35,905 nucleotides of DNA, from assembly GCA_021805245.1 (NCBI GenBank), contig JAJZFS010000109.1, positions 1 to 35,905 on the forward strand. Reading direction: 5' to 3'. Made by a program: the position numbers and the translations under genes. The stretch comes from Pseudomonadota bacterium. Lineage in GTDB: Bacteria; Pseudomonadota; Alphaproteobacteria; Micavibrionales; UBA2020. The notes below the pieces were generated by a model. That model had not been told where the DNA came from. It made no database searches and was given only the letters and a program-made list of their open reading frames with translations. Shown piece by piece: positions 11,955-28,592 of the stretch; position 1 is the stretch's first letter; each line of letters begins with the position of its first letter.

Positions 11955-12037
11955 CTTGCCCTCTTGGTCTGTGCAATCAGTATTATTCTAGCGGCGCAAG
12001 GTAAATATATTATGAATAAAAGCGCGAAAGAGTTTTT

Positions 12038-12634
12038 TTACCAATATTTCAGTGCCTTAGGCTGCAACACGCGCCGCCGCCAGAGTAGGAAAAGCGCCAT
12101 GCCCGCGTTGGAGCAGGTCAGCACCGCGGGGTAAAGCCATGTGGAGAGCGAATAATGCTCGATGGCGAGAAGGGATAGAAAAGCGCTACAACTGGAGATG
12201 AAATAGCTGCGCGAGGTTTCCTGATGCGGCCGCTCCCACGATTTGCGCACGCTCGGGAAGTATCCGGCCGTGTCGATCGCGCAGACGATGATCACCGACC
12301 AGACCGGCGTTTTTGTGGCGATCCACAAGGGGATGGTGGCGAGCGCGATGATCAGCGTGATCCAGTCGCTCCGTTTGATGTCGCGCGTGCCAGCCACCAG
12401 CGCGACGATCACCACGACAAAATTGGTGGCGGAGGCAAGCGTGCGCGCCCATGCGCCCGGACCCGCGCCTTTGGCGATTTGTGCCGCCGCGCCGACGCTG
12501 GAAATGACGCCCCAGATGAACCACGAAAACGCATGCGGCCTAGTTTTGCCCTGGAAAATGGAATGAAAGTAATTCGCGCGCGAAAGCAGCGTCAGCAGAG
12601 CGGAGAGGGCGCCAAGGATTTCTACATGAGACAT
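12038..12634 (-). CDS. multispanning membrane protein with PQ-loop/SemiSWEET-like repeats
   Basis: The 198-aa protein is almost entirely transmembrane, with six or seven helices. Two related segments, SRANYFHSIFQGKTRPHAFS followed by WFIWG (about residues 18-42) and DTAGYFPSVRKSWERPHQET followed by SRSYFISS (about 126-152), each combine 'Y-F/P' with a proline and serine/tryptophan at a helix-loop junction. This is the layout of a duplicated PQ-loop (SemiSWEET-type) unit. Transport of a small solute is therefore possible, but no substrate can be named. The start is the ATG at 12634, which lies in the 3' arm of an inverted repeat and has only a weak SD sequence. It lies 170 bp from the end of the EPS operon and is probably not part of it. 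Confidence 0.7.
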   Translation of the reverse strand: MSHVEILGALSALLTLLSRANYFHSIFQGKTRPHAFSWFIWGVISSVGAAAQIAKGAGPGAWARTLASATNFVVVIVALVAGTRDIKRSDWITLIIALATIPLWIATKTPVWSVIIVCAIDTAGYFPSVRKSWERPHQETSRSYFISSCSAFLSLLAIEHYSLSTWLYPAVLTCSNAGMALFLLWRRRVLQPKALKYW

Positions 12635-12804: not shown

Positions 12805-14283
12805 TCAGGCCGCATCAGCGGCTTCCACCGTATCGAATGTAACGATCTCGTTAAAGAGCGTGCGATATTGCGTCAATGCACCGGCCGTAATGCCTAAAAC
12901 GGCTATTCCCCCCCCCAGCAGCACGCGGATCCAGTTATCGGGGGCCAGAGACTGGGTCGTGTTGATGTATAACATGATGCAAACCATCGTGACGATGACC
13001 GGAACGGCCAGCGTGCGCAGGTAATCCGAGAGCGGGCACTCGAGACGGGGTAAAGTCAGCATCAGAATGCGCGGGAAATAGAAAAAGACCGCAAGGGTAT
13101 AAGCCACAACGGCCCAGGCGATGCCGAACCGCGTAAAAACAAGCAAAGCGGCCGCGAAAAAAATGCAGAATTCGGTATTCAGGCGCAACTGAATGTCCGT
13201 GCGTCCGAGCGCCATCATGAAGGCGCCGGAAAAGGCCGTCATCGCCTGCAGCGCCGCCGCGGGTGCCGCAATCATGTACAAGGAGCCGGAGGGCAGCCAT
13301 TTTTTCGACAAGAACAATTCAAACAGCGGATGATGCGCCGTCGCCACCATGCCGATGGCGGGAAAAATAAGTATCGCCTGAATGCGGGTGAGCAACAGAA
13401 AGATCCGGCGAATGAGCGCTTTATTGTCGCCGAGCGGCGCAATATGCGCATAAAGGACATATTCCAACGGCCCTGTAATAAGGCGCAGAGGCAGGCGCAC
13501 GAACAGAAAGGCCATTGTATAAAAGCCCAGAAACCATGATCCGAGCATTTTGCCGATGATCAGATTGTCCTGGGATTGCGTCAGCGTCATCATGAAACTC
13601 GCCCCCAGAACATTACGCCCGAAAATAAGATGCTCTTTCAGGTCGCGCAGTTTAAGGACCATGCGGGGCCTAAAGCCGGCACGCCAGAAGGTCAGACAAA
13701 ACCTCATGATATAGAGGGCGAGCTGCTGCGCAATCAGGGCCCAGGCGCCGCCCCCCTCGAAAGCGGCAATGATTGCGGCTATCAGACCGCAGGCGATTGC
13801 GACCGCTTCCGTCCAGGCGATGGTGCCAAACTTGTGGTTTTGACGGAGGTATGTCTCGGGTACCGTCGCCGCGGCTTGCGGGATAATGACGAGGGCAAGG
13901 GTCGTCACAAGAGGCCACAATAACGGTTCTTTGAAAAAGAAGGCGGCGAGCGGCGCGACCAGCATGACCAGCAGCGAAAAGCAGGTGCCGATAATGATCG
14001 TCAGCCAGAAACAGGAAGACCAGACATCCTTGTTTCCCGGCTTGTTTTCCGACCCGCTTTCCTGCCCGCTTTCAGGCGTGTCGCGCAACAGCGACTGCCC
14101 CACGCCGGCATCCGTGAACATCATGGTAAAGAGGACAAAAGGCATGGCCATCGCGACAACGCCGTAGTCGGCCGGCGACAAAAGGCGCGACAGAACGGGA
14201 ATGACGAGAAGCTGCGCCATCATGCGGAATACCGTCACCGAGGACATCAGTGCTGTGCCGAAGGCGATTTTGCGGAAGGCCAT
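12805..14283 (-). CDS. Wzx-type polysaccharide flippase (MOP superfamily)
   Basis: This 492-aa membrane protein should translocate undecaprenyl-linked EPS repeat units from the cytoplasmic to the periplasmic face. The N-terminus MAFRKIAFGTALMSS and the adjoining LSRLLSPADYGVVAMAM (residues about 25-45) are characteristic of polysaccharide-transporter family members. At least twelve hydrophobic helices follow, with basic inter-helix loops. A hydrophilic insert (SGQESGSENKPGNKD) after the second helix is atypical. ATG 14283 is preferred over the longer frame beginning at 14367 because GGAGGGG is 5-11 nt upstream, the upstream 28 residues are unlike the family, and the alternative would overlap the preceding gene. 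It is the last gene of the minus-strand EPS run, 14 bp after the cysteine-rich protein gene. Confidence 0.88.
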   Translation of the reverse strand: MAFRKIAFGTALMSSVTVFRMMAQLLVIPVLSRLLSPADYGVVAMAMPFVLFTMMFTDAGVGQSLLRDTPESGQESGSENKPGNKDVWSSCFWLTIIIGTCFSLLVMLVAPLAAFFFKEPLLWPLVTTLALVIIPQAAATVPETYLRQNHKFGTIAWTEAVAIACGLIAAIIAAFEGGGAWALIAQQLALYIMRFCLTFWRAGFRPRMVLKLRDLKEHLIFGRNVLGASFMMTLTQSQDNLIIGKMLGSWFLGFYTMAFLFVRLPLRLITGPLEYVLYAHIAPLGDNKALIRRIFLLLTRIQAILIFPAIGMVATAHHPLFELFLSKKWLPSGSLYMIAAPAAALQAMTAFSGAFMMALGRTDIQLRLNTEFCIFFAAALLVFTRFGIAWAVVAYTLAVFFYFPRILMLTLPRLECPLSDYLRTLAVPVIVTMVCIMLYINTTQSLAPDNWIRVLLGGGIAVLGITAGALTQYRTLFNEIVTFDTVEAADAA

Positions 14284-14297
14284 GAGTCCCCTCCCAT

Positions 14298-14672
14298 CTA
14301 TTGGTTGATGCGCTGATCGTAGCGGTACGGACTGATATTGTCGGGATGCTGTGCGCGGTCCATGCAAACGACCCTGTCACGGAAGGAGCCGCGGTAGGAG
14401 TCGCTGTAACATTCCTCAAGGCTGCCGTATATGCATTGTGCGATGCCGACCGAATGGACGGCGCAAATACGCGAGCTGCCGTAATAGTAAAGGCGCGCGT
14501 CCTGATTGACGGCGCAAAAGCTATTGGGCGGCTGTGCGGCGTTCATGCACGACTGTACGTCGTTGTACAAGCATTGCGGCGGTATCCCCATGCCGACGAC
14601 GCAAAAGTTCGCGGCCTCCGTCGTGCCGGAGGCGAGAGCAAGGAAGACTGTCACGAGTAAAAATTTGCGCAT
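14298..14672 (-). CDS. small secreted eight-cysteine protein, internally duplicated (DUF3551-like)
   Basis: The 124-aa product has a clear signal peptide (MRKFLLVTVFLALASGTTEA, cleavage probably after residue 20). The mature part contains two copies of one module. The first has four cysteines spaced C-x9-C-x7-C-x10-C (FCVVGMGIPPQCLYNDVQSC, then SFC); the second has C-x9-C-x7-C-x14-C (ICAVHSVGIAQCIYGSLEEC, then VVC). Each module probably forms two disulphides in the periplasm. The module resembles DUF3551 proteins of Rhizobiales, usually present as one copy and without a known role. Its place between the Wza-type and Wzx-type genes, 39 and 14 bp away, implies co-expression with EPS export. The minus-strand ATG is at 14672. 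Confidence 0.75.
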   Translation of the reverse strand: MRKFLLVTVFLALASGTTEAANFCVVGMGIPPQCLYNDVQSCMNAAQPPNSFCAVNQDARLYYYGSSRICAVHSVGIAQCIYGSLEECYSDSYRGSFRDRVVCMDRAQHPDNISPYRYDQRINQ

Positions 14673-14711: not shown

Positions 14712-15473
14712 TTAGTGAATAGTCGCTCCGGCGCCTATGCCGACTGCAGGGTTGATATATTGCTGGAAGTTCTGCTGATAAGCCTGATACCGCAGGGCGG
14801 CGCCGGTCTTGGGAACGAAAACGACGTCATCGGGCGCGAGACGCGCGTCTTTGGTCGGATCGGCGCCCTGCGTCGCGGCATAGTAATTGGCGACATAAAC
14901 CTTTTCATTTTCGCCGGCGCCGCGGCGAAAGATCAGGACATCCTTCCGCAGGCCTGTCGGCTTGATGCCGCCGGCGCGGGCAATGGCCTGGTCAAGCGTG
15001 AGGGCCTGCCCCACGACGAGAAACTCGCCCGGGTTTGCAACTTCGCCGCTGACATATATCCGGATCGGCGCGAAGGAGCGGACGACCGTTGTAATGGAGG
15101 GGTTTTTGAGTATGCGTTTATAGGCTTTTTTGAGCATGTTGGTGATTTGCCCTGTAGTTTTGTTATAGACGTATAGATTTTCGGCGATTTTGGTGGAAAT
15201 CATCCCGTCTGGATTGACCGTAACGGTTTCGCTCAGCTCGGGGTTCAGGTACAAATCGATGTCGAGAACGTCGCCGATTTGCACTCTATACGCGGGCAGC
15301 CTTTGCGCCGTCGGTGCTTGGGGTGCAACTGCTGTGGGCAGTGGCGGGACATTCGAGTAATTAGGGTCGGCTGCGCACGCGGAGAGCAGCAAAAGAGACG
15401 CAATGATAAAAATCGCGCCGGAGGCGGAGCGCAGTCCGTATTTTCTCGTTTGTTCTGTCATTTTTTTTCCCAT
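14712..15473 (-). CDS. outer-membrane polysaccharide export lipoprotein (Wza/GumB/ExoF type)
   Basis: The protein should form the outer-membrane/periplasmic export channel for the polymer. It has a lipoprotein signal with lipobox LLSAC (cysteine at residue 33). A Poly_export domain follows, starting YRVQIGDVLDIDLYLNPEL and NPDGMIS (about residues 58-90), and then an SLBB-type domain beginning IRIYVSGEVANPGEF (about 130-145) with LTLDQAIARAGG. The 253-aa length indicates a short GumB-like member with few SLBB domains. ATG 15473 is used here; ATG 15461 is equally possible, and neither has a strong SD sequence. It lies 28 bp after the WbaP-type gene in the operon. Confidence 0.92.
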   Translation of the reverse strand: MGKKMTEQTRKYGLRSASGAIFIIASLLLLSACAADPNYSNVPPLPTAVAPQAPTAQRLPAYRVQIGDVLDIDLYLNPELSETVTVNPDGMISTKIAENLYVYNKTTGQITNMLKKAYKRILKNPSITTVVRSFAPIRIYVSGEVANPGEFLVVGQALTLDQAIARAGGIKPTGLRKDVLIFRRGAGENEKVYVANYYAATQGADPTKDARLAPDDVVFVPKTGAALRYQAYQQNFQQYINPAVGIGAGATIH

Positions 15474-15501
15474 TGTCAATTACTCGGTCAGTGTCAATTC
15501 T

Positions 15502-16899
15502 CTAGTAGGCTCCTTTGCGCTTCAAAACGACCAGGATCGTCTTGAAGAAAATGATCAGATCATTCCAAAGAGACCAGTTTCTCACATACCAGCTGTCGAG
15601 ATAGACGCGCTGGCCATAGCCCGTGTCGCTGCGGCCGCTCACCTGCCATAGGCCCGTCATGCCCGGCCGCACCGAAAGGTATTCGTTTATTTTTTCAGCA
15701 TAGTATTTTTTTTCATCTTCGACGATCGGGCGCGGACCCATGAGGCTCATATGCCCCTGCAGGACGTTGAAAAGTTGCGGCAGTTCGTCAAGGCTCGTTT
15801 TGCGCAGGAACTTTCCGATTTTCGTCACGCGCGGGTCGTTCTTGAGTTTATAAGTCTCCTCGTATTCCTTGCGCATATCGGGGTTGTTTTCCAGCAGATC
15901 GTGCAGCATTTCATGGGCATTGGTGACCATGCTGCGGAATTTCAGGCAGTTAAAGGGCTTGCCGTTTTTGCCGATCCGCGTGTGTCCGTACATCGCCGGT
16001 CCGCCGTCTTTTCTGATCGCCCGGGCGATCATGAGGAAAACGGGTGACAACAGCACAATCGCAATTGCCGCGCCGACCCTGTCCAGAACATCTTTCAAGA
16101 ACAGGCCCAGCCCGGGAAGGAAGGATTCTCCCGATTCCAAAGCGATAATGCCATAGCCGAAAAATCTTTTCGGCGCCGTGTTGTAAAGGAAATATCCTTC
16201 CGCCGGCGGTACGTAAGCGAAGCGCGCGCGGCTTTTTTCAAGTTGCGAGAGAATTTCCGCATGCGCCGCGGTTCCGCCATCGGGGCAGAAGAAGATATAG
16301 CGGCCCGCGCGGATAATTGGCTCGAGCGTCGAACAAATGTGCGCTTTGGGATAAAGCTTTTCAAACTCCCTGATTTGCGCTTCCGTGGCGTCGAGCAAGT
16401 GCGCCTGTTGTACATCATATATTAGATAGCCTTCCGCTTTCAGCGCGGGGGCAAGCTTGAGGACAGCTTCGTAGTTTCCCACCAGACCGGTCGGAACGGC
16501 CCAAAGTCCGCGCTTCATCAAAACAGCGCGGGTCAGCCAGCGCGCGAGCATCAGGCAGGGCGGCATGAAAAGCCACAGCAACAGATTCGGCGCCAGCGGG
16601 ACTGGCATTTGCAAGATGTAAATGATCAGCGACGACAACGTGAAAGCCGCAAAACTTGCAAGCAATATATGTTCGACCTGCAGCCACCACGATGCCCGCA
16701 GGGTATAATGCCCCTTTGCCGCGAAATAACACATGCAGGCCAGAAAGAACGGAACAGACAGGAAAAATAGCCCGGAAGCCGGCCAGAGGGGAAATATGAC
16801 CGAAGCGCAAAGCGCGGCAAGTCCGAAAGCGAGCAGGCTTGCGGCGCCGTCAGCCAGAAGGAGGCCGGTAGCTGTGTGTTTTGAAGCCTGCGACATCAT
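15502..16899 (-). CDS. undecaprenyl-phosphate hexose-1-phosphate transferase (WbaP-type initiating glycosyltransferase)
   Basis: This enzyme starts the repeat unit by moving hexose-1-phosphate (galactose or glucose) from its UDP form to undecaprenyl phosphate. The 465-aa protein has four N-terminal transmembrane helices (about residues 10-125), a central Rossmann-like soluble region, a further membrane segment near 275-295 (reentrant helix) and the bacterial sugar-transferase core. The core shows [41 protein letters not shown] and [15 protein letters not shown]. Substrate: GalE directly upstream favours galactose, but the sequence cannot decide. ATG 16899 overlaps the galE stop (ATGA), indicating translational coupling. 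Confidence 0.93.
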
Positions 16900-17918
16900 A
16901 TTGCTCTCGCGTATCTTATGGCTTCGCTTGTGGCATCAAGGCCCGTTTTCTTCTTCTGCCATTGCCAGGCCGAGGAAACGATCGTCTGCAGGTCGGAGTA
17001 GAGGGGCTTCCAGTCGAGCAGTTTGCGAGCTTGTGCGGCGTCGGCCACCAGCCTGTGCGGATCTCCGCTGCGGCGCGGGCCGGAGCGCGTGGGGATGGGC
17101 CGTTTCGTGATGCGCCGTGCCATGTCGACAACATCCTGCACGCTATGTCCTGAACTGGTTCCGATATTGAGCGTCAGCCGCGCATTCCGTTTGCCGATAT
17201 GGCGCAGGGCGAGAATATGCGCTTCGGCGAGATCCTGTACGTGAATGTAATCCCGAATGGCGGTGCCGTCCGGCGACGGATAATCCGTGCCGAAGATGCC
17301 GATTTCCTTCATGTCGCCGGAAGCGACGCGCATCAGCAGGGGGATGATGTGCGTATCCACTTTATAGGCGGTGCCGATTTCTCCGCTCATGTCCGCGCCG
17401 GCGGCATTGAAGTATCTCAGAATGGCGTAATCGAGATTATAGGCCGCCGCATAGTCGCGGATCATATTCTCCATGGCGAGTTTCGTATGGCCGTAAGGAT
17501 TGACCGGACGCAACGGATGGTCTTCAGCAATGATGTCGGCTTCGGGCGTGCCGTAAACCGCAGCGGAACTTGAAAACACCATTTTGCGGATATCATTTTT
17601 CCGCGCAACATTCAGCAGACAGAACGTGCCGAAGACGTTGTTATCGTAATATTCGGATGGTTTGATGACGGATTCGCCGACCCGGATGAGGGAGGCGAAA
17701 TGCATAATGGCTTCTGGCCGGTACAACTTTATGACTTGGGTCAATCTTGTCTGGTTGCGGATATCGCCGATTTCCAGCGGTCCCCAGCGGACATGATCTT
17801 TATTGCCTGAACATAAGTTATCATAGCTGACAGGGTTATAACCATTGGCGGCAAGCGCTTTGCACGCATGGGAGCCGATGTAGCCGGCACCACCGGTGAC
17901 GAGAACGGTGTTGTTCAT
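16896..17918 (-). CDS. galE: UDP-glucose 4-epimerase GalE
   Basis: GalE interconverts UDP-glucose and UDP-galactose. The 340-aa short-chain dehydrogenase-type protein shows the NAD-binding motif VTGGAGYIGSHACKAL (residues 6-21), the catalytic serine region FSSSAAVYGTP, the Y-x3-K motif in NPYGHTKLAME, the YFNAAGAD segment and DGTAIRDYIHVQDLA. ATG 17918 is preferred because GGAGAA lies about 3-8 nt upstream and the family starts here; a TTG at 17933 would add five residues. Position between the polymerase and the initiating transferase suggests that it provides UDP-galactose to the EPS repeat unit. Confidence 0.96.
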   Translation of the reverse strand: MNNTVLVTGGAGYIGSHACKALAANGYNPVSYDNLCSGNKDHVRWGPLEIGDIRNQTRLTQVIKLYRPEAIMHFASLIRVGESVIKPSEYYDNNVFGTFCLLNVARKNDIRKMVFSSSAAVYGTPEADIIAEDHPLRPVNPYGHTKLAMENMIRDYAAAYNLDYAILRYFNAAGADMSGEIGTAYKVDTHIIPLLMRVASGDMKEIGIFGTDYPSPDGTAIRDYIHVQDLAEAHILALRHIGKRNARLTLNIGTSSGHSVQDVVDMARRITKRPIPTRSGPRRSGDPHRLVADAAQARKLLDWKPLYSDLQTIVSSAWQWQKKKTGLDATSEAIRYARAI

Positions 17919-17959
17919 TTCTCCATTCCTCAAAAAATGGCTGTTTTCCTAAGAGCTGA

Positions 17960-19294
17960 TTAAACGTTTCCGCGGAACCTTGGTTCCGGTTTTTGCGTCG
18001 CGCTTCTGTCATTCTTTTGGCGTACATCCTCGGTATTACTTTTTGATTTGCAGAACGAGACGAGCCAGAAGAATAGCAGCGGTCCCATGCCGTATGGCCC
18101 CAGCGTGTCGACCTCGAAGGGCGAGCGGAACAAAAACAGGAAAGCCAGGCCGAAAGCGAGCCCCGCCCCCAGGGTCATGCCCTGGCGCCATACCCGCGCA
18201 AAGCTCCCGAAGCAACTCGTCACCAGCATCCATGCCATGAGCAGGGCTCCGGCCATGCCGAGGTCGACGAAGGTCTGGATGAAAAGATTGTGAAAGTGAA
18301 AGCCGGTTGCGTTGGTGATAAAAAATTCTCGCCAATACCATTCGGCCGCGGGCCTCCCGGGTATCCAGAAAGCGGTATAGCCGTAGCCCAGAACCGGATG
18401 TATCAGCCCGTTTTTTATCCCCTCGGTCCAAAGGTATGTGCGGCCCGTCAGCGTCGAGTCCTTGCCAAAGGTGCCGAGAACCATGCTGATGACGTCGAAA
18501 CGGGTCGCGATGATGATGAGACCGCATACGAGCAGGCTCATAATAGCCCCCGTCAGCGCAAGCCCCCGCAACTGGCGCGGAAGGCGCATGAGCAGGGTGA
18601 CGCCGGCCCCCAGACTTAGCACCAGCGCCAGCGAAGCGATCGATGTCGCGGACTTGCTGAGCACAAGACAGACGGCGCAAAGCCCTAAAGGCAGGAGAAC
18701 GAACATGAGTTTTTCAAAAAACGTCGTGCGGGCGGTAAGCATAAGAAGAGATAGATAAATGCCGATTTCCGCGAAGAAGCCCACTTCGTTTTTGGAGCCG
18801 AAATATCCCATCAGCGCATCGGCTTTGGTCAGATAATCCTGAGCGTAAATGCCGCTCGCCAGCGTGATGCCCATAACGATGGCGATGCCGAGGATAAGCC
18901 CTTTGATAAAAGGTTTTACCCGCACAATCCGTGTCATGATGACGGCGCTGACGGCCAGCGTCAGCAGTTCCGCTCCGTGGTAGATGCTTGTCGACGGATA
19001 ATCGGACCAGAAGGCGGAATAGCAGGCCAAGAGAGGAAAAATCAGGGCCGCGAACAAGGCGGATGACGGACGCAGAATATAAGCGCCCTTGTAAAAAATA
19101 TGCCTGAACCACAGCAGAAGAAAAACCAGGATCGGAAAAACCGTGAACAGGGAGGAAAAGGCCATGATGACCGTCGACAGGGCGACATAGAGCATGGCGG
19201 CAAAGTCGGGAATGCAAGGATAGGCGCCTGTCTGCGCGCGCCGGCGCGGCAGGACTGTTCCGGACAGGGGATTTTGCGCGATTTCGGTTACCAT
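17960..19294 (-). CDS. O-antigen ligase/polymerase-like EPS polymerase (Wzy/ExoQ type)
   Basis: The 444-aa protein has about 11-12 transmembrane helices and the long periplasmic loop typical of Wzy_C/O-antigen ligase family members. The loop carries GTFGKDSTLTGRTYLW (about residues 273-288), GYGYTAFW and HNLFIQTFVDLG (about 342-353), including the conserved TGR and H-N residues. In the EPS context it should polymerise undecaprenyl-linked repeat units in the periplasm, as ExoQ does for succinoglycan; a ligase role cannot be excluded from sequence alone. Its ATG at 19294 overlaps the end of the PP-loop gene by 7 bp. A basic tail follows the last helix. Confidence 0.9.
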   Translation of the reverse strand: MVTEIAQNPLSGTVLPRRRAQTGAYPCIPDFAAMLYVALSTVIMAFSSLFTVFPILVFLLLWFRHIFYKGAYILRPSSALFAALIFPLLACYSAFWSDYPSTSIYHGAELLTLAVSAVIMTRIVRVKPFIKGLILGIAIVMGITLASGIYAQDYLTKADALMGYFGSKNEVGFFAEIGIYLSLLMLTARTTFFEKLMFVLLPLGLCAVCLVLSKSATSIASLALVLSLGAGVTLLMRLPRQLRGLALTGAIMSLLVCGLIIIATRFDVISMVLGTFGKDSTLTGRTYLWTEGIKNGLIHPVLGYGYTAFWIPGRPAAEWYWREFFITNATGFHFHNLFIQTFVDLGMAGALLMAWMLVTSCFGSFARVWRQGMTLGAGLAFGLAFLFLFRSPFEVDTLGPYGMGPLLFFWLVSFCKSKSNTEDVRQKNDRSATQKPEPRFRGNV

Positions 19295-20625
19295 GCGAGA
19301 CTCCTGTTGATAAAGCGGGCGACGGATCTATGTCGCAGCAGGGCCGGAATGATCCGCATCGAGAACTGTTGCGCCGCGGCCGCCGGCAAAAGAGTGCCGA
19401 TCAGTCTCACGAAACGCGGGACGGGGAAATTCTTTTCTGCGATAAGCTGCCTGATTTCCTTCACGTACGGCGATTTTCCGCCCATGACCTCTATAAGGTA
19501 GAGATTTTCAAACGTCGCAAAGGACTTGAGGTCGAAAACTTTGTTGTATTCCTCGAGCTTGCCGAATATCTTCAGCGTCGTGGCCGTGCGGATGCACTTC
19601 CAGCAAACGCCGCAATTCGCAATGCCGCCCGGCGCATTGTGTGGCGACACGCAGACATCGAGATAATGGCGGCTTTCCTCGATCTCGGTCACGCGGCGCG
19701 TCTTTTCAACGCGGCTGTGCTGCCCGCCGCTTCCCATGCACTCGAGGCGCTCCGTGCCGAGCAGGGGAAGTATGACGGGTTCGAGATGCGACATGTTGGA
19801 ATCCGGCCCCAATTTGGTCTCCGACAGCGGATAGCCGGAGGAGTAGAGGAACTTGCCGAATGCCGCCTGCATCAGCAGCGCGACGGCGGTGTTGCGCAGC
19901 GTATGCGTCAGCTCGAATTTCTGGCCCATGAACTCGTCCAGATTGGAATCAACGGCGACCGCCGGTTTGCCCAGTTTTTCCGCGCAGTCCCGCAGGCGGG
20001 AAAAACGCCTGAGAAACAGGGCACGGTCGGCGTCCGGCGCCTTTTGCCCGTGGGCGCCGACATTGTTAAAAATGAAGTGCGTCAGGCTGAAGTCGTCCGG
20101 CACGCGGCCGTGCGAATGATCGTAATAGTTGCAAAAAGAATCCACGCCGCCTGAAAATCCGGCTGCAACGCCAGCGCCGCCTGTTGTCGCGGACGTAAAC
20201 GTGTCGGGAAAAATGTTTGTGACGCGGGGCTTTTCAAGATATTCGGAAAGGATCGGGATGAGCGAATAGGAAAGATTATAAAATAATTTTCCCGACATGG
20301 GGCCTTTCAGCCGGATGTTTTCTCCCCGCAGGATGGCGGGGATAAGGCTTGCGACGACAAAGGCATCAAGCGTATCTGCAGCCAGATAATCCTTGTAAGT
20401 ATCCTCAATCTCGAACCACAGAGTCTTAACGTCTTCCCCGATCCGGATGCCGGACGCAATCCGCGCTCTCCCGTTGCCTGTCGAAACGACGGGCGGGTTG
20501 ATGATGATTTCCTCCGAAACTGTTTTCGCGTTCGTGTTCGCGGGAACGGTTTTGAGGACGGCGGATGCGGACTCCTCCATATATGAATTTGCGTCACGTG
20601 CTAAAATACTATTCACCGTTGCCAT
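19288..20625 (-). CDS. QueC-like PP-loop ATPase within the EPS operon
   Basis: The 445-aa protein has the PP-loop pyrophosphatase motif FSGGVDSFC (S158-GGVDS163). A second feature typical of QueC/ExsB-type proteins is a four-cysteine set: C325 in LDVCVSPHN, then C338, C341 and C344 in ANCGVCWKCIRT, which probably binds zinc. An N-terminal domain of about 145 residues (with YLAADTLDAFVVASLIPAIL and LKGPMSGKLFYNLSYS) precedes the PP-loop and is not part of QueC. PP-loop enzymes adenylate a carboxylate or similar group to allow amide, thiol or nitrile formation. No other queuosine genes are nearby, so I infer an EPS-related substrate. ATG 20625 follows GGAAAGGAAAA and overlaps the preceding GT2 gene by 13 bp. 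Function is not established. Confidence 0.8.
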   Translation of the reverse strand: MATVNSILARDANSYMEESASAVLKTVPANTNAKTVSEEIIINPPVVSTGNGRARIASGIRIGEDVKTLWFEIEDTYKDYLAADTLDAFVVASLIPAILRGENIRLKGPMSGKLFYNLSYSLIPILSEYLEKPRVTNIFPDTFTSATTGGAGVAAGFSGGVDSFCNYYDHSHGRVPDDFSLTHFIFNNVGAHGQKAPDADRALFLRRFSRLRDCAEKLGKPAVAVDSNLDEFMGQKFELTHTLRNTAVALLMQAAFGKFLYSSGYPLSETKLGPDSNMSHLEPVILPLLGTERLECMGSGGQHSRVEKTRRVTEIEESRHYLDVCVSPHNAPGGIANCGVCWKCIRTATTLKIFGKLEEYNKVFDLKSFATFENLYLIEVMGGKSPYVKEIRQLIAEKNFPVPRFVRLIGTLLPAAAAQQFSMRIIPALLRHRSVARFINRSLAW

Positions 20626-21575
20626 ATTGGTTTTCCTTTCCGGTTGAGAAGAAACGGGATGATTTTCCGCGCACGCACCCATACGGGCCGCCATAAATGA
20701 CGGATGGCGCGGGGGGACGCCGCCGCCGCCCGCAGCGCGGACGGAAGATTGCGGCTCTTGATCGCGTCTACAAGGTATGCGTAGGCATAAGCCTCTTTCA
20801 AATTGATTTGCCGCTTTCTTTGCGCCTTCGCGGCGGCGAGGGGGAGCTTGTGCAGTGAAAGAAGCCGCGTGTCGTTTGCGATGATTTTCAGGATATCCGC
20901 GCCAGTCAGGCGGTGCGAGGCGGATCCGGCGCGGGCGGTGTATAGGTAGCCCTCTGTTGGATCGATGATGCAGCGCGCGCCCGCGACGAGTGCCTGCGCC
21001 AGCAAAAAATAATCCTCGCCAATGCGCAGGTCTTCCTGATAACGAAGCTTGTTACCGTGCAGAAATTCCGCAGAGATGAGCGGTTTCATATAACCCAATG
21101 CATAACCTCCCGTAAACGACTGGTTGCCGGCAATAAAGTCGGCCAGCCCAAGCAGGGGAAGACGTGCCAGACGCGCGGGCGTGAACATCGGGAATATTAC
21201 GCCGTCGCTTTCACGGTAGACCGAAAGATTGTCCACAACGATATCCGCCTTTTGCGCGGCGGCCAGCTTCATGAGACGCGCCAGCCGGCCCGGCAGGAAA
21301 GTGTCATCGCCGTCGAGAATGGCGATCCAGCGGCCGGAGGCACGCGCGATGCAGGCATTTCGGGCGGCGCCGGGGCCGCTGTTGCTGCAGAGCCGGATGC
21401 ATTGCAGGCGGGGATCGTTTATCCGCGAAAGGGCTTCCCATGTTTTGTCCGTCGAGCCGTCATCGGCCGCGATGACTTCTATTGCAGCGGCCTGCGCAAG
21501 AGCGCTGTTCACGGCTCTTTCAATGTAACGTTCCACGTTATAGGCGGCAATGATAATGGAAATATCAGGGCGCAT
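20613..21575 (-). CDS. GT2-family glycosyltransferase
   Basis: This cytoplasmic inverting GT-A enzyme should add one sugar to the lipid-linked repeat unit. The 320-aa protein starts with the donor-binding DISIIIAAYNVERYIERAVN, followed by AADDGSTD and the DxD-like metal motif WIAILDGDDTF (about residues 86-96). The putative acceptor-side acid is in IGEDYFLL. The opening resembles succinoglycan ExoO/ExoW-type enzymes. AAGGAGACATC precedes the ATG at 21575. It starts 9 bp after the preceding GT2 gene ends and overlaps the PP-loop gene. Donor and linkage cannot be read from the sequence. Confidence 0.9.
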   Translation of the reverse strand: MRPDISIIIAAYNVERYIERAVNSALAQAAAIEVIAADDGSTDKTWEALSRINDPRLQCIRLCSNSGPGAARNACIARASGRWIAILDGDDTFLPGRLARLMKLAAAQKADIVVDNLSVYRESDGVIFPMFTPARLARLPLLGLADFIAGNQSFTGGYALGYMKPLISAEFLHGNKLRYQEDLRIGEDYFLLAQALVAGARCIIDPTEGYLYTARAGSASHRLTGADILKIIANDTRLLSLHKLPLAAAKAQRKRQINLKEAYAYAYLVDAIKSRNLPSALRAAAASPRAIRHLWRPVWVRARKIIPFLLNRKGKPIWQR

Positions 21576-21584
21576 GATGTCTCC

Positions 21585-22502
21585 TTATCTATACTGTTCT
21601 ATTTTATCATTGCCCATCAGCCGATATGCGACGCCGGCGTGCAATGCGCCGCGCAGGCTCCAGAACCGCATCGGCCTGGTGCGCAGGAGATTAAGCAGCG
21701 CCATGAGCAGGCACAGCGCGGCTTTGCCGGCGGCGACCACTGTTTTTTCCGCGCGTTTCAAAAAGCCGGGCGTGGTTTCCAGCAGCAAAAGACCGTGGGT
21801 CTGGCCGAACCTGAAGCGCCGTTTCAGCAGCCAGAGAAAACTCTCGCGCTCTTGAGGCACTTTTTCCGTTACAATGGCGTCTCTTGCATAGGCGATGCAG
21901 CTGCCGTCTTGAACGAGCGTATGGAAGTAGGCGGTATCCTCTCCGCCGCACCGCCCGAGATCTTCGCGAAAACGCAACGTTTGCGCCGTAATGCGTTTTA
22001 GAAGAACGTTGCCCGCGCCGCCGCTGACGATTTTTCTGTTTTTCCACACCGGCAGCGAGGAGTGAAAGTCTCCGGTTTTCATCCATGCGGGACATTCGGC
22101 ACGGTAGACGGCCCGCACGGGTCCCAGCACGACGTCGGCTCCGGTTTTTTCAAGCGTGTCGGTCAGGGCGGCCAGCCACTGCGGGCTCGCCACTTCGTCG
22201 TCGTCGATAAAGGCAATCAGCGGCGCTGTCGCCAGTGCGAGACAGGCGTTGCGCGCAACTGAAATGTTGCGGGCGGGAGCATGCACATAGGCGCATTGCA
22301 GGGAATGATGCCGTGCAACGGCCATGACAGCCGCCCGCGCCGTCGGGGCATCGTCATTGTCGGCGACGATAACGCGGATTTTTCGGGCAGGGCCGATGCT
22401 TTGCTGCGCGATAGAGGCGAGCGTTGCGGCGATTTGGGGGCGGCGGAAGGTGCAAACGCAAACATCGATGTCGGCTTGCGCCAGGGGAGGATTTTCCGTC
22501 AT
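21585..22502 (-). CDS. GT2-family glycosyltransferase (ExoM-like)
   Basis: The 305-aa protein has the GT-A layout: IDVCVCTFRRPQIAATLASI at the N-terminus (CTFRRP is typical of ExoM-like enzymes), VIVADND, ARNISVARNACLA, the metal motif IAFIDDDEVASPQW (about residues 91-105) and GGEDTAYFH near the acceptor site. The frame is open upstream to 22874, but ATG 22502 overlaps the preceding gene's stop as ATGA and begins at the family start, so I take the short form. It should add a sugar to the growing repeat unit; donor unknown. A short hydrophobic stretch near the C-terminus (AALCLLMALLNLL) may anchor it to the membrane. Confidence 0.9.
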   Translation of the reverse strand: MTENPPLAQADIDVCVCTFRRPQIAATLASIAQQSIGPARKIRVIVADNDDAPTARAAVMAVARHHSLQCAYVHAPARNISVARNACLALATAPLIAFIDDDEVASPQWLAALTDTLEKTGADVVLGPVRAVYRAECPAWMKTGDFHSSLPVWKNRKIVSGGAGNVLLKRITAQTLRFREDLGRCGGEDTAYFHTLVQDGSCIAYARDAIVTEKVPQERESFLWLLKRRFRFGQTHGLLLLETTPGFLKRAEKTVVAAGKAALCLLMALLNLLRTRPMRFWSLRGALHAGVAYRLMGNDKIEQYR

Positions 22503-23509
22503 GTTGCTCTCCGTAACGCCGCGAAAAAACCGCTCATAAACCCCGACGACCAGCCGAGATGCATCAGCATGGCGGCGGGACCGGCCAGAACAATCTCCGC
22601 CCGCCGCGCGCGGATGCCTAAAACGAGGCCGTAAGCAAGGCAGATGGACATCCATAAAGCCGCAGGCAGGGCCGCAATCCACGAAATCAGGGCGGCCGGT
22701 GCCAGCAGGAGCGCGGGTGCGACAGCCAGAGGGAGCATTTGACGCAAACGGGGAACAATCCGGTGTTTGACGACGGTGCGCGCACGGCCCTGCCCGAAAT
22801 GGAAGTACTGGCGAAAGAGAAGGTGCGGCTGTGCGCGCGGATAATAGGTGAGCGCCGTTTTTCCGGTCAGCCATATTTTATATTCCGCGCGGTGCAGGCG
22901 GATGTCCAGCTCTGCATCCTCGTTGTGGGAGAAATTTTCATCATAGCCGCCCACAACGCGGAAGGCTTCAAGGCAGACGAGCGCATGATGCCCGTGATCG
23001 ACCCATTTTCCGGTGCCGGTTACGCGCCGGTGCGCGGCGCCGCCGTTGCCGAGAAGGGAGTTCTGCGCGGCGGCTGCGGCGCGCTGAAAGCCCGTTTCCC
23101 CGACGGTGTTCATAGAAACGACCACGGCGGCAGCGCCGGTGGCTTCCTGCTCCGCGACAAGTGTCTGGCAGTAATCCTTCGGATAATCCGCGTGGGCATC
23201 CAGCCTGAGAAGCCAGCGCGCCTTACGGCCATAAGTTGCGGCCGCCAGATTGACGGCTGCGCTTTGCAGGCGTTTCGGGTTGTGCAAATACCGCACGTTG
23301 GGAAACTGCGCCGCCAGTTTTTGCGCGATGAGCGGCGTCTGGTCCGAACTTCCGCCGTCGGCGATAACAAGAAGAAACGACGCCGGAGAAAAATTGTCGA
23401 TGATATTGCGGACGACGCCCTCGAGATGACGCTCCTCGTTCAGGCAGGGGATGACGGCCAGGAGTTCTGGTTCGTCGTCGCGATGTTTGGCTGGTTCACG
23501 CATAGGCAT
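22499..23509 (-). CDS. GT2-family glycosyltransferase (ExoA-like) with C-terminal membrane segments
   Basis: The 336-aa protein resembles succinoglycan ExoA, a membrane-associated glucosyltransferase. It shows LLAVIPCLNEERHLEGVV, VIADGGSSDQT, LLRLDAHADYP (metal motif), the conserved VDHGHHALVCLEAFRVVGGY and NEDAELDIRLHR (catalytic acid region), then FHFGQGRART. Two to four hydrophobic helices follow (about residues 252-325). Translation may start at ATG 23509 or 23503; both overlap the upstream gene's end at 23496, and the following gene overlaps by 4 bp. Donor sugar is unproven; glucose is inferred only from ExoA similarity. Confidence 0.9.
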   Translation of the reverse strand: MPMREPAKHRDDEPELLAVIPCLNEERHLEGVVRNIIDNFSPASFLLVIADGGSSDQTPLIAQKLAAQFPNVRYLHNPKRLQSAAVNLAAATYGRKARWLLRLDAHADYPKDYCQTLVAEQEATGAAAVVVSMNTVGETGFQRAAAAAQNSLLGNGGAAHRRVTGTGKWVDHGHHALVCLEAFRVVGGYDENFSHNEDAELDIRLHRAEYKIWLTGKTALTYYPRAQPHLLFRQYFHFGQGRARTVVKHRIVPRLRQMLPLAVAPALLLAPAALISWIAALPAALWMSICLAYGLVLGIRARRAEIVLAGPAAMLMHLGWSSGFMSGFFAALRRAT

Positions 23510-24650
23510 GCTCTTTTGCCGGCAGTTGCAGGGATGTCAGGTAGCTGACAAGGGACTGACAATCTTGTTTGTCATGACGCCACTGCGCGCGCGGCGTTTG
23601 CGCGACGCGTTCTTCGAGCGCGCGATAATGATCTGCCGTGAGCGTGTCTAAGAAGCGGGGCAGCGATATGTGCAACGGCTCCTCCAGCGTCACGCCGATT
23701 TTAAGCCGCTCCAGAAAACGGCCCGTGAACACGGTTTTCAAAGCGATCGGAACGGCATTGAACAGGCCGCCTTCATAAAGCCTGTTGGGCAGGAGCAAGG
23801 CTGAATTGCCCCCTTCTTCATAAAAGTCCACAGCCCAGATAAAATGAACGTCGCGGTATATTGCGGGCAGATCATCCGGCGATTTATATGCGCCGGCATA
23901 ATATATTCCGGGCGTGCGGGAAACGACCTCGTGAAAATCTGCGAACTGATCGAGAGCGGGACGCCCGCGGATAACGATCTCCACCGCGCCATTGCTCCGG
24001 CAGGCAAGGTCGGCGAGAATCTGCAAGCTTTTGCGGCAACGGATAACGCCGAACCACCCGATCTTCCACGGCGGTCCTGCCGGTCTGGCCGGCCATGTAT
24101 TTTTTACGGCAATTTTTCCTTGCGGATCATAAACTTTATTTTCTACAAGCCGCACGGGCGTGGCATAGCGGGAAAAGTACGCCTCTATAAATCCCGGCGA
24201 ACTGGTAATGAGCGCAGCTGTCTTTGTAGAAAGCCAGGATTCGATGCGCCGGAGCAAACGTCCGGCCACGCCTTTGTCCAGAAGCAGGCGGTGAATATCG
24301 AGGCTTTCATAGACAAGGACTGGCTTGGGGCTGGCGGCGGCATAACGCGCGCCGATCGCAAGCATTTCAAGATTGCGGGCGATGATCACGTCCGTCTGCG
24401 TGAAAGCGGCATTGCGGATCGGGGATAATATATGACGCAAAACCGCCATGATTCTCTGTGCGAACCTGCCGTCATAGGTTCTTCCGAAATCGATCGGCAC
24501 ATGCCCGGCGACATCGTGCACGGGCCGCGGCGCGCGGCTAAAGCCCGCCACGGTGAGAGTGGCGCCGCCGTCGCGCAACATTGCGACGCGCTTGTGGACG
24601 GCCGCATCGGCCAGATCGTGCGCGAGATAAAGAATTTTCCGTTCCGTCAT
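23496..24650 (-). CDS. GT4-type (GT-B fold) glycosyltransferase
   Basis: The 384-aa protein has the two-Rossmann GT-B layout. The N-terminal half begins with KILYLAHDLADAAVHKRVAM and contains DVIIARNLEMLAIG and VYESLDIHRLLLD. The C-terminal half has WKIGWFGVIRCRKSLQILAD, VEIVIRGRP, YAGAYKSPDDLPAIYRDV and the donor-binding region LLPNRLYEGGLFNAVPIA. The latter takes the place of the usual E-x7-E motif. The overall plan is close to ExoL-like enzymes of EPS clusters. ATG 24650 is fixed by AAGGAG and by a 4-bp overlap with the GH16 gene stop; the longer open frame reaching 24758 lies inside that gene. It should act at the cytoplasmic membrane face. Confidence 0.88.
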   Translation of the reverse strand: MTERKILYLAHDLADAAVHKRVAMLRDGGATLTVAGFSRAPRPVHDVAGHVPIDFGRTYDGRFAQRIMAVLRHILSPIRNAAFTQTDVIIARNLEMLAIGARYAAASPKPVLVYESLDIHRLLLDKGVAGRLLRRIESWLSTKTAALITSSPGFIEAYFSRYATPVRLVENKVYDPQGKIAVKNTWPARPAGPPWKIGWFGVIRCRKSLQILADLACRSNGAVEIVIRGRPALDQFADFHEVVSRTPGIYYAGAYKSPDDLPAIYRDVHFIWAVDFYEEGGNSALLLPNRLYEGGLFNAVPIALKTVFTGRFLERLKIGVTLEEPLHISLPRFLDTLTADHYRALEERVAQTPRAQWRHDKQDCQSLVSYLTSLQLPAKEHAYA

Positions 24651-25393
24651 GGCTTCTCCTTGAGAGGCGTGTACTTCACCCATGCGACTTCCGCCGTCAC
24701 GGGCTTTTGATAGACAAAATGCCCCATCCATGAATCTTCGACGGTTGAGCCGGACCATAGACTAAAATAAATGCGCGCCGCTTGTTCGGGTATGGGGGCT
24801 TTGGCGGGCGTTTCATGCACCAGACGATCGTCGACGTACCAGCGGATGGCTGTCGGGGTCCATTCAAAGGCGTAATCGTGGAAGGCTGACGAGGCGTCGT
24901 ACTTGAGGGGGATGATGACGTGATCATATTTCTTCCCGTACTTCCAATAGGTGATTTCAACGGCATGCGTGTTCTTACCGAGGAATTCAAAATCGATCTC
25001 CTCATGCGATGGAACGCCCACGGGCGGACCGATATAAGTGAAGAAAGCGGTGTTCAGGCCGCTGCCGGCGGCCGCGCGCAGGCGGGCTGCATAGCGTCCA
25101 TACTTTGTGCGGGTGACGCTGTGAATTTCGGAGCAGCCGTAGGGCCGCAATTTTCCGCCCTTATCCGAAAGGCGTAATTGTAAATTGCCATTTACGCCCG
25201 ACAGGTCGTCCGCTCTCCATTCGCAAGATTGCCAGTCGCCGTTGGCCCAGCCGTTGGACGGATGCCAGCGCACAAGATCCAGATGCGGATAGGGTGAGAA
25301 AAAAGGCAACTGCTGAGCCGCGGGCGCGTCCCACCCCGCCACCACAAATATAAATAGCAAGGCGACGCCCAGATAGAAGATAAACGTTCTCAT
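24647..25393 (-). CDS. secreted GH16 glycanase (ExoK-like)
   Basis: The 248-aa enzyme has a hydrophobic signal sequence (about residues 1-27, ending DAPAAQ) and a single GH16 domain. The catalytic strand is HEEIDFEFLG, with E132 as nucleophile, D134 and E136 as acid/base (the E-x-D-x-E form). Around it are SGVNGNLQLRLSD, GRYAARLRAAAGSGLNTAFF and YAFEWTPTAIRWYVDDRLV, all typical. In rhizobia, ExoK cleaves nascent succinoglycan; here a similar trimming of the cluster's own polymer is the natural inference. It is the first gene of the long minus-strand operon, and its stop overlaps the GT4 start. Confidence 0.93.
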   Translation of the reverse strand: MRTFIFYLGVALLFIFVVAGWDAPAAQQLPFFSPYPHLDLVRWHPSNGWANGDWQSCEWRADDLSGVNGNLQLRLSDKGGKLRPYGCSEIHSVTRTKYGRYAARLRAAAGSGLNTAFFTYIGPPVGVPSHEEIDFEFLGKNTHAVEITYWKYGKKYDHVIIPLKYDASSAFHDYAFEWTPTAIRWYVDDRLVHETPAKAPIPEQAARIYFSLWSGSTVEDSWMGHFVYQKPVTAEVAWVKYTPLKEKP

Positions 25394-25510: not shown

Positions 25511-25556
25511 GTTTGTAGCGTTTCCATCGCTCAATCATAAAACAGTGAGGCACCGA

Positions 25557-26795
25557 ATGTATTTTGAATTTGGTCTACGCGGACTGCTAACGGCGTTTTT
25601 CAGGAAGAAAAAAATCTTTCTCCTGATCTTTTCTTTTGCATTTCTTGTCGGCGGTTCTTATCTGCTGCACAAGCCTTCGATGTATGAATCGAAGGGCTCT
25701 TTTCTTATCAGGTTCGATCAGGGTGCATTGCCGACCACCGGCAGCGCGGATGACGGGCGTGCTATGGCGTTCTCCAGCGACGGACGCGAGGAGATGCTCC
25801 AGTCGAATGTTACGCTGCTCGAGAGCGACGATTTGCTGAAAGCGGTCGTCCGATCCGTCGGCGCCGAAAAAATATATCCCGGCATCGGCGCGGGGACGAA
25901 AGGCGCGGAAATGGCCGATCTGGCCGCAGTCGCCAGACTGCGCGCACAGGGTCTTAAGGTCGTGAGCGATCCGCGGAGCGAGGTCATCAGGATCAGCGTC
26001 TTCAATCGCGATCCTGTCGTCGCGCAAGAAGTCGCCGCGCGCATCATAAAAATATTCACGGCCCGCCAGTCCGTCATCTTTGGCACGCCGCACACGGCGT
26101 TTCTGCAGCAGCAGGCCGACGACATGCGCAAAAAAATGGAGCAGTCCGAGCAGGACCTGCGCGATTTCAAACAGAATAAAGGAATCACGCTGCTCGATGA
26201 GGAGGTCACCCAGCTTCTGGCGGAAAAGAAGGATTTATCGGTGCGCGCGTTTCAGGCCGTAGGCGATTCGCAAGCCGTGATCGCCAATCTTTTGAAGGAC
26301 AAGGCCACGATGGAAGCGACCTATCGTCCTGACAGTCCCGTCATACAGCGCATTGACGAGAGCCTCGCCGCCGCCCGTGCGGAGGCGCAGGGGCAGGATG
26401 CCGGCAACGGCGCCTTTGCCACGCGAATTGCGGATGTCAACAAGCGGCTGGCTTTGCTCGAGGCGAACCGTAAGCGCTACCACGATCTGGAGCAGCGCGT
26501 CGCTCTGGACACGGCTAACTACAAGTTCTACCAGCTGCACAACGACGAGGCACGCGTGAACGAGCGGTTGAATCAGGCAAACATCACGCGCATCTCCGTC
26601 ATTGACAGGCCGGTGGTTCCCCTGAAGCCGGTGAACGGGCACAAATCGCTCTTGCTGTTGGCGATTCTGATGACGGCGTCGTTGCTCGGTTTGGGAACCG
26701 TGCTGTTTTTGGAACTTATGGACGATACAGTCGTTTTTAACGAGCAGGTCTTTACAACAACCGGGTTGCCGGTTCTCGCAAGCTTTGGAAGGTAA
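25557..26795 (+). CDS. Wzz/GumC-type polysaccharide co-polymerase (chain-length determinant)
   Basis: The 412-aa inner-membrane protein has transmembrane helices at about residues 20-40 and 370-392 flanking a long periplasmic region with coiled-coil stretches (FLQQQADDMRKKMEQSEQDL and the following residues, about 182-225). The proline-rich PCP motif DRPVVPLKPVNGHKS lies just before the second helix. It should control polymer length with the Wzy-type protein and dock to the Wza-type channel. Unlike ExoP or CpsD-fused proteins it has no kinase domain; a separate degenerate P-loop protein follows 6 bp downstream. ATG 25557 is chosen because TGAGG lies 7 nt upstream; a GTG at 25545 would add four residues. 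Confidence 0.9.
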   Translation: MYFEFGLRGLLTAFFRKKKIFLLIFSFAFLVGGSYLLHKPSMYESKGSFLIRFDQGALPTTGSADDGRAMAFSSDGREEMLQSNVTLLESDDLLKAVVRSVGAEKIYPGIGAGTKGAEMADLAAVARLRAQGLKVVSDPRSEVIRISVFNRDPVVAQEVAARIIKIFTARQSVIFGTPHTAFLQQQADDMRKKMEQSEQDLRDFKQNKGITLLDEEVTQLLAEKKDLSVRAFQAVGDSQAVIANLLKDKATMEATYRPDSPVIQRIDESLAAARAEAQGQDAGNGAFATRIADVNKRLALLEANRKRYHDLEQRVALDTANYKFYQLHNDEARVNERLNQANITRISVIDRPVVPLKPVNGHKSLLLLAILMTASLLGLGTVLFLELMDDTVVFNEQVFTTTGLPVLASFGR

Positions 26796-26801
26796 AAACA
26801 G

Positions 26802-27560
26802 ATGAAAAATGTAGCAGCTATGACATCATCGGAAAAGGTCTATGAAACGCCACGCGAGCAGGATCCGCCAGTGCTCAGGATGCCGGAAAACCATCCCGGG
26901 CAGGTTGTTCCCGCAACGATAAGCCACGCGCTTTCGCCGGCAAAACTTGTTTCGCTCCTCCATGCCGTGGAAAAAAATATGCAGACGGCGGGAACGCCCG
27001 TGATTCTTTTTATGGGCGCGCACGAAGGCGTCGGCGCCGATAATGTGGCCTTCGAGACGGCCTATGCCGGTGCGCGGACGGGCAAGCGCGTACTTTTTAT
27101 CGATACGAACGGAAGCGCATCCGGCGTGATAAGGCAACTCAGAAGCAAGGTGCCCATGCCGCTGAATATAGCCTCCGGTGGCGAGGTTGAAAGCATTGCG
27201 CCATTCGTGAATGTAGAGGGGACGTCGTTGTTCTTCGCAACTTTTGACGAATACAAGGAGCGTCATAGTTTCTTTCCTGACAGACGGGCGCATATAAAAA
27301 TCATTGACGAATTGAGGCCTGTCTTCGATCTTATCGTCGTGTATTCGGAATCGGGGCTGTCGAATCCGCTTGCCACAATTCTCAGTGGCCTTGCGGACGC
27401 GAGTGTTCTTGTCGTGCAGGAGGGGCGCACCAGAATCCCCGTCATCAGGGATCTGCGCCGTCTGGTTGACATGCACGGTGGCCGCGTTGTCGGCGTTGTG
27501 ATGAACAAATGCCGTTCCTATATTCCGCCTTCGGTATACAAGGCCCTCTTCAGCTTTTGA
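26802..27560 (+). CDS. BY-kinase/ParA-like P-loop protein with degenerate nucleotide-binding motifs
   Basis: The 252-aa protein lies where EPS clusters encode the CpsD/Wze tyrosine autokinase. It keeps the fold's order of segments: VILFMGAHEGVGADN (Walker A place, residues 67-81), GKRVLFIDTNGS (Walker A' place), VFDLIVVYSESG (Walker B place) and ADASVLVVQEG. However, the Walker A lysine and Ser/Thr are replaced by A79 and D80, and the Walker B aspartate-proline pair of BY-kinases by YSES. There is also no C-terminal tyrosine cluster; the tail ends SYIPPSVYKALFSF. It is therefore probably a non-kinase structural partner of the co-polymerase. ATG 26802 follows the Wzz-type stop by 6 bp and probably shares its transcript. 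Confidence 0.82.
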   Translation: MKNVAAMTSSEKVYETPREQDPPVLRMPENHPGQVVPATISHALSPAKLVSLLHAVEKNMQTAGTPVILFMGAHEGVGADNVAFETAYAGARTGKRVLFIDTNGSASGVIRQLRSKVPMPLNIASGGEVESIAPFVNVEGTSLFFATFDEYKERHSFFPDRRAHIKIIDELRPVFDLIVVYSESGLSNPLATILSGLADASVLVVQEGRTRIPVIRDLRRLVDMHGGRVVGVVMNKCRSYIPPSVYKALFSF

Positions 27561-28437: not shown

Positions 28438-28464
28438 CCTTTGTTGTCTCCTCTGGGGGTAGCG

Positions 28465-28526
28465 CCATTCATCCGAATGGGTGAGTGTCAATCTTTCTAA
28501 ACGCTTCTGCACAAGGAACGTTCCTT
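28465..28526. promoter_or_regulatory. divergent pyruvyl transferase-galU control region with 14-bp perfect palindrome
   Basis: This 155-bp divergent spacer (28438-28592) holds AAGGAACGTTCCTT at 28513-28526, a perfect 14-bp palindrome, and CCATTC/GAATGG (28465-28480), a 6-bp inverted repeat. On the minus strand a consensus TTGACA lies at 28490-28485, but no good -10 follows at 16-18 bp. The palindrome is about 67 bp from the galU ATG and 76 bp from the pyruvyl transferase ATG. Confidence 0.45.
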
Positions 28527-28592
28527 CTCTGCGGGCGTTTGTGTGCAAGACAAGCCGAAGAGAGGCCGGGGATATCCATTATGGAGGGCGCT

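Follow-up and report, generated by a model that had tools for sequence, protein, structure and literature searches.

What reaction does a QueC-like PP-loop ATPase perform when its gene lies within an exopolysaccharide (EPS) operon? The question is raised by a gene on the minus strand (positions 19288-20625) of the stretch of DNA analysed here, a contig of 35,905 nucleotides from an alphaproteobacterial assembly, hereafter called the window. QueC-type enzymes have a known role in preQ0 synthesis, and since 2025-2026 others have been known in defence, where they modify a partner protein. The original prediction for this gene was an enzyme that activates a carboxylate of the polymer, or of a precursor, to an amide, nitrile or thio form.

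The Gene and the EPS Operon

The open reading frame encodes a product of 445 amino acids, which its translation, an AlphaFold2 (AF2) model and the VIA Z score identify as a PP-loop ATPase of the QueC superfamily with a QatC-like architecture. Its 5′ end overlaps by 13 bases a GT2 glycosyltransferase gene (20613-21575, minus strand, PF00535 match), and its 3′ end overlaps by 7 bases the gene of a Wzy-like polymerase or protein of the O-antigen ligase type (17960-19294, minus strand), which was assigned from sequence and position and is syntenic in two other genomes of the genus (L002 and L003). An alternative in-frame start at 20694 would give a protein of 468 amino acids, while the homologues favour the start at 20625. 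In three other genomes of the genus (L002-L004) the PP-loop homologues are 76-87% identical and have the same start, and the gene order around them is the same up to the contig limits, which makes four genomes in all. It follows that the frame, the start and the operon position are not due to chance. The gene is a genuine, well-formed member of the EPS operon, and the integral membership claimed for it at the outset is borne out both by the two overlaps and by the order kept in the genus. The gene is missing from the genus genomes G001, G003, G004 and G006.

The operon further contains, on the minus strand, the genes of a Wzx-like flippase (12805-14367, sequence reading), a Wza-like polysaccharide export protein (14712-15479, PF02563, 61 bits), a priming sugar-phosphate transferase (15502-16899, PF02397, 222 bits), a UDP-glucose 4-epimerase of the GalE/ExoB type (16896-17933, sequence reading), a second GT2 glycosyltransferase (22499-23509, PF00535, 69 bits), a GT4-like glycosyltransferase (23496-24758, PF13579, below the cut-off) and an ExoK-like GH16 glycanase (24647-25393, PF00722, 122 bits), the number of glycosyltransferases being three or four. 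A split Wzc-like chain-length protein with a kinase-like partner (25545-27560; GNVR below the cut-off, otherwise sequence reading) and the UTP-glucose-1-phosphate uridylyltransferase GalU (28485-29507, sequence reading) are encoded on the plus strand. Located 7 kb from the PP-loop gene is that of an ExoV-like polysaccharide pyruvyl transferase (27571-28548, minus strand), which matches PF04230 with 40.1 bits (E 5e-10), membership of this family being no proof of pyruvyl transfer. From established knowledge of the succinoglycan genes, we take the operon to specify a succinoglycan-like, pyruvylated EPS.

Two further genes of the window can be mentioned here. Adjoining the EPS operon, positions 29510-33751 (minus strand) encode a secreted-looking protein of 1413 residues that contains numerous near-identical repeats and, internally, a GH16-like stretch. 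Between the Wza and flippase genes, positions 14298-14672 (minus strand) encode a small, cysteine-containing secreted protein, which is resembled by the product of 11969-12520 in another EPS locus (L033), where the gene adjoins a flippase gene and the PP-loop gene.

Family and Fold

The SGGVDS pyrophosphate-binding loop (residues 158-163; 20137-20154, minus strand) and the cysteines of the segment C325...N337-C338-G-V-C341-W-K343-C344 (19594-19653, minus strand), a predicted metal site, are found exactly at the residues originally assigned to them. The protein consists of an N-terminal domain (residues ~38-145), a core (~150-355) that carries the C4 site, and a helical C-terminal extension (~366-445).

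Homologues were collected from GTDB genomes, plasmids and IMG/VR; the plasmid loci were picked up by similarity search, and the sampling is therefore neither uniform nor random. Fifty of them, from bacteria, haloarchaea and phage-like contigs, were aligned. Gly160, Asp162, Arg305, Cys325, Asn337, Cys338, Cys341 and Cys344 are invariant in 50/50 sequences, and Lys308, Lys343 and Phe157 nearly so, giving the signature R-x2-K...VC...NCGxCxKCxRT; the only conserved cysteines are the four of the QueC pattern. In the maximum-likelihood tree the window protein belongs to a well-supported clade with L058, L005, L006, L011, L052 and L053. No family match was found in phage GenBank records. In the plasmid records examined, members are annotated as "hypothetical protein", and the family is not described in the 2026 survey of PF06508 (PMC13329287).

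A Pfam search and a structure prediction had been suggested as checks on the original prediction. The direct search of the window protein returned no match in Pfam, NCBIfam or PADLOC models or in PDB sequences, and none of ten diverse family members exceeded the Pfam or NCBIfam cut-offs, QueC and DUF6395 appearing only below threshold. For PF06508 (gathering score 22 bits) the best relative reaches 16.6 bits, and for DUF6395 (PF19932, gathering score 25 bits), whose likeness lies around NCGxCxKC, every member scanned is below the threshold, the best (L027) having 19.7 bits. The structure prediction yields a PP-loop ATPase fold. The single sequence gave a pLDDT of 37, while the usable AF2 model, obtained from an 11-sequence alignment, has a pLDDT of 84.7 and a pTM of 0.82. 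Its top match among the solved chains re-aligned by VIA-align is QatC (Z 14.5, rmsd 4.7, 298 residues), followed by QueC (Z 11.9), Cap9 (Z 11.4) and other PP-loop enzymes (~9). In hhalign, the family aligns to QueC with E 3.5e-7 over 184 columns, with the cysteine motif in register, and to QatC with E 8e-6 along a 272-column path that runs from the N-terminal domain through the cysteine motif. Since no Foldseek match in PDB or BFVD had an E value below 0.001, the structural claim rests on the VIA Z scores and on hhalign to QueC and QatC. The predicted relationship to QueC thus holds, and the homologues can be placed solidly, in fold and in family, as an unnamed family within the QueC superfamily.

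The N-terminal domain had been described as unrelated, which proved incorrect: all family members have it, and it lies inside the stretch that aligns to QatC. The VIA alignment, which spans model residues 36-396 and QatC residues 2-451 (these are range ends and not a residue map), and the hhalign path to QatC indicate that the domain is probably an extension of the QatC type. Its weak Foldseek matches to RNase H have E values of about 0.02-0.4, and no relationship is claimed.

QueC is defined by the motifs YxQxHxxE, VPxRN, YPDC and C(x)8CxxCxxC (PMC13329287; PMC13279940). The window protein shares with QueC (PDB 3bl5) the SGGxDS phosphate-binding loop, which it carries at residues 158-163, the Rossmann-like core and, towards the C-terminal end of this core, a C4 site, but it is twice as long and is not accompanied by preQ0 genes. 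The cysteine motif has the spacing C(x)12CxxCxxC instead of C(x)8CxxCxxC; across the family the first spacer varies from 6 to 12 and is exactly 8 in 9/50 sequences. YxQxHxxE, VPxRN and YPDC are absent from the alignments, with RN alone kept in 8/50, and the family is devoid of the motifs by which QueC recognizes 7-deazaguanine.

Two other groups of PP-loop enzymes can be compared by their cysteines. The WbpG/PseA sugar amidotransferases (PF06508 cluster 5, PMC13329287) are likewise PP-loop enzymes of surface-glycan loci, but they have 300-400 amino acids and a CxxC(x)6CxC motif that is absent from the window protein, which also has no NCBIfam match; the prediction that it is not of this type agrees with its cysteine layout. 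LarE and the PP-loop sulfurtransferases use a three-cysteine [4Fe-4S] site or a sacrificial cysteine; the cysteines conserved in the present family are the four of the QueC pattern.

Neighbourhoods and Proposed Reaction

A PF04230 gene lies within 3 kb of the PP-loop gene in 7/36 loci (random expectation 0.34) and within 10 kb in 9/36 (random expectation 1.05). For comparison, 149 priming-transferase EPS loci in 120 Pseudomonadota genomes were considered, of which 1/149 has PF04230 within 3 kb and 4/149 within 10 kb. The excess at the PP-loop loci is significant at both distances (p=4e-5 and 6e-5, respectively), also when the comparison is made in Pseudomonadota alone (p=3e-4 and 2e-4). The two genes are directly adjacent in Azospirillum (as a two-gene pair), Gloeothece, Priestia, Gemmobacter and G784, which come from different parts of the tree. 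In Azospirillum brasilense Sp7 the pair consists of AMK58_RS27450 (PP-loop) and AMK58_RS27455 (pyruvyl transferase). In an independent EPS locus of the window's clade (L058), the PP-loop gene stands beside a pyruvyl transferase gene whose product is 40% identical over 212 amino acids to that of the window. The PF04230 proteins of L034, L041, L012 and L038 are homologous to one another; that of the window resembles those of L058 and L037. Sugar-transfer ATP-grasp and FemAB-like GNAT proteins, both associated with amide chemistry, also recur among the neighbours, as do AsnB-like proteins. We have also considered GNAT PF13480 as the main partner; its association (4/36 within 10 kb) is weaker than that of PF04230.

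On the basis of these recurrent neighbourhoods and of the fold, motifs and operon position shown above, we tentatively propose that the PP-loop enzyme adenylates an EPS carboxylate, most likely that of a pyruvate ketal, and links the activated group to ammonia or to a small amine. It would be an ATP-pyrophosphatase whose family, an unnamed one within the QueC superfamily, was recruited into polysaccharide biosynthesis. The PP-loop would bind ATP, and an acyl-adenylate would form on a carboxylate of the EPS repeat unit or of a precursor, as in QueC and Cap9. Attack of ammonia or a small amine on the adenylate would then give an amide, corresponding to the first half-reaction of QueC or to the ligation of Cap9. 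The carboxylate would come from the pyruvate ketal installed by the PF04230 transferase (27571-28548). The ketal is the most likely source because no other recognised step of the operon would introduce a carboxylate, and the PF04230 enrichment leads in the same direction as the operon content. The four cysteines, arranged in the structural-zinc pattern of QueC, would hold a metal (Zn), while the glycan acceptor may be bound by the N- and C-terminal extensions. We tentatively infer the substrate, together with the nucleophile, the product and the roles of the extensions.

The carboxylate chemistry of the original prediction is hence retained in part. Its pyruvyl variant agrees with the PF04230 enrichment, but the alignments lend no support to nitrile or thio products, because the YPDC nucleobase-recognition motif is gone and no cysteine is conserved beyond the C4 site, which likewise disfavours sulfur transfer. 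Our searches of open-access papers brought up neither an amidated pyruvate ketal nor a description of such a polymer decoration.

A somewhat unlikely alternative is that the same class of amide-forming enzyme acts on a glycan or precursor, but that its carboxylate belongs to a uronic acid, an amino-acid substituent or an acyl donor, depending on the locus. It speaks against the pyruvate ketal that PF04230 is absent within 10 kb at 27/36 loci, among them the glycan loci L036a, L049, L051, L054 and L056, and is missing altogether from some genomes that carry the family. The neighbours vary, including ATP-grasp, GNAT, AsnB-like, Mur-ligase and formyltransferase proteins, and several loci have UDP-sugar dehydrogenases. 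In the window operon, however, no UDP-sugar dehydrogenase was recognised and the only predicted precursor genes are those of GalE and GalU, which favours the pyruvate ketal there.

That the gene serves EPS modification, as originally predicted, agrees with the blastp reading of the neighbours, according to which about half of the loci have at least two glycan genes within 8 kb, but the family is wider than EPS. Roughly the other half, for example L006 (in the window's clade), L025-L028, L048, L055 and L059, lack glycan genes within 8 kb, which weakens the proposal, and the nearest relative outside the genus (L005) has one glycan gene in this range. With many members outside glycan loci, the family may have several substrates. 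A broader reading, possible but doubtful, is that a large family of QatC-shaped QueC paralogues amidates or otherwise condenses carboxylates of surface glycans, pyruvate ketals being one of the main substrates, and that the phage copies remodel the host surface. Polysaccharide modification would thereby gain a new class. If glycan carboxylates are indeed the substrates, an enzyme class would be added to surface-polysaccharide chemistry, with masking of EPS charge as a consequence, and QatC would gain a sister family whose substrate can be guessed.

Relation to QatC, Cap9 and Queuosine Synthesis

Both QatC and Cap9 function in defence (PMC13329287). The motifs of QatC include HP, P(x)4TK and C(x)19CGxCxxRR, and its defence activity depends on the N- and C-terminal extensions, parts of which bind QatB (PMC13279940; PMC13329287). 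The window protein resembles QatC (qatABCD; PDB 9y01/9y02; NF041925) in length, PP-loop core and four-cysteine site, and its predicted model has the QatC architecture of N-extension, QueC core and helical C-extension (Z 14.5). The invariant TRTTHP of QatC is, however, replaced by G-S/T-x-P in the family (S-H-L-E-P in the window protein), C(x)19CGxCxxRR by C(x)12CxxCxxC followed by RT, and against the curated NF041925 cut-off of 280 bits the window protein gives no match and the best relative 12.4 bits. Asp87 was considered as the equivalent of the QatC Asp63, catalytic according to PMC13329287, and was rejected, being kept in only 30/50 homologues. Cap9 (type IV CBASS, PDB 9nto) shares the QueC-type core and the activation of a carboxylate with joining to an amine, but it is a minimal protein of ~185 amino acids that keeps the CDG-recognition residues and adjoins a CD-NTase, none of which applies to the window protein. 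Beside the window gene there is no CD-NTase partner and no qatA, qatB or qatD, the neighbours being EPS genes.

The family also occurs on prophage-like contigs of IMG/VR (L062:1591-2703, L063:7614-8834, L064:7626-8759 and L065:1059-2231), in each case a few kb from tail-fibre, tail-spike or tail genes. Such placement is frequent for lysogenic-conversion cargo. PHROG 1550 (QueC-like, moron) is a distant relative of the family.

That the enzyme modifies, in the manner of QatC and Cap9, a partner protein such as a surface protein or a component of EPS assembly is unlikely. No solved structure matches better than that of QatC, which has both extensions as well, and phage-borne members lie near tail genes, but N-termini of the MG[GT]S type occur in 2/564 ORFs near the 36 loci, without recurrence, and the T-R-T-T-H-P motif of QatC is missing. 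Furthermore, since canonical QueC is absent from four genus members, the window genome among them, and PTPS/QueD from eight genus genomes including that of the window, these genomes would not be expected to provide the CDG that Cap9 uses. Even less likely is an anti-phage or superinfection-exclusion gene that occurs by chance in surface-glycan loci and prophages. The defence functions of QatC and Cap9 (PMC13329287), the IMG/VR members near tail-fibre genes and the scattered, multi-copy genes would suit it; against it stand the lack of any PADLOC match and of adjoining qatA/B/D or CD-NTase genes, and the translational coupling within the EPS operon, kept across the genus. A housekeeping role as a QueC replacement or other nucleobase enzyme, for which the genus without canonical QueC would leave room, is very improbable, because PTPS/QueD is missing as well, other genomes hold a true queC in addition to a family member, and YPDC and YxQxHxxE are absent. 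The gene is thus not part of a queuosine pathway, as had been predicted, and no queD/queE partners are present in the window.

Finally, some features of individual genomes and loci were noted. One genome with the PP-loop family (G589) also carries a stop-interrupted QatC gene (C4:6354-7495). In an exosortase-type EPS locus (L049:10162-14552), the PP-loop gene is followed by a dioxygenase-like gene and by that of an AMP-binding protein of 1136 amino acids with four carrier domains. Tandem duplicates of the PP-loop gene occur at L026:7784-10388, L006:259-2806, L041:7707-10311, L056:8574-11005 and L059:8841-11233, and a single genome can hold up to four copies (G203).
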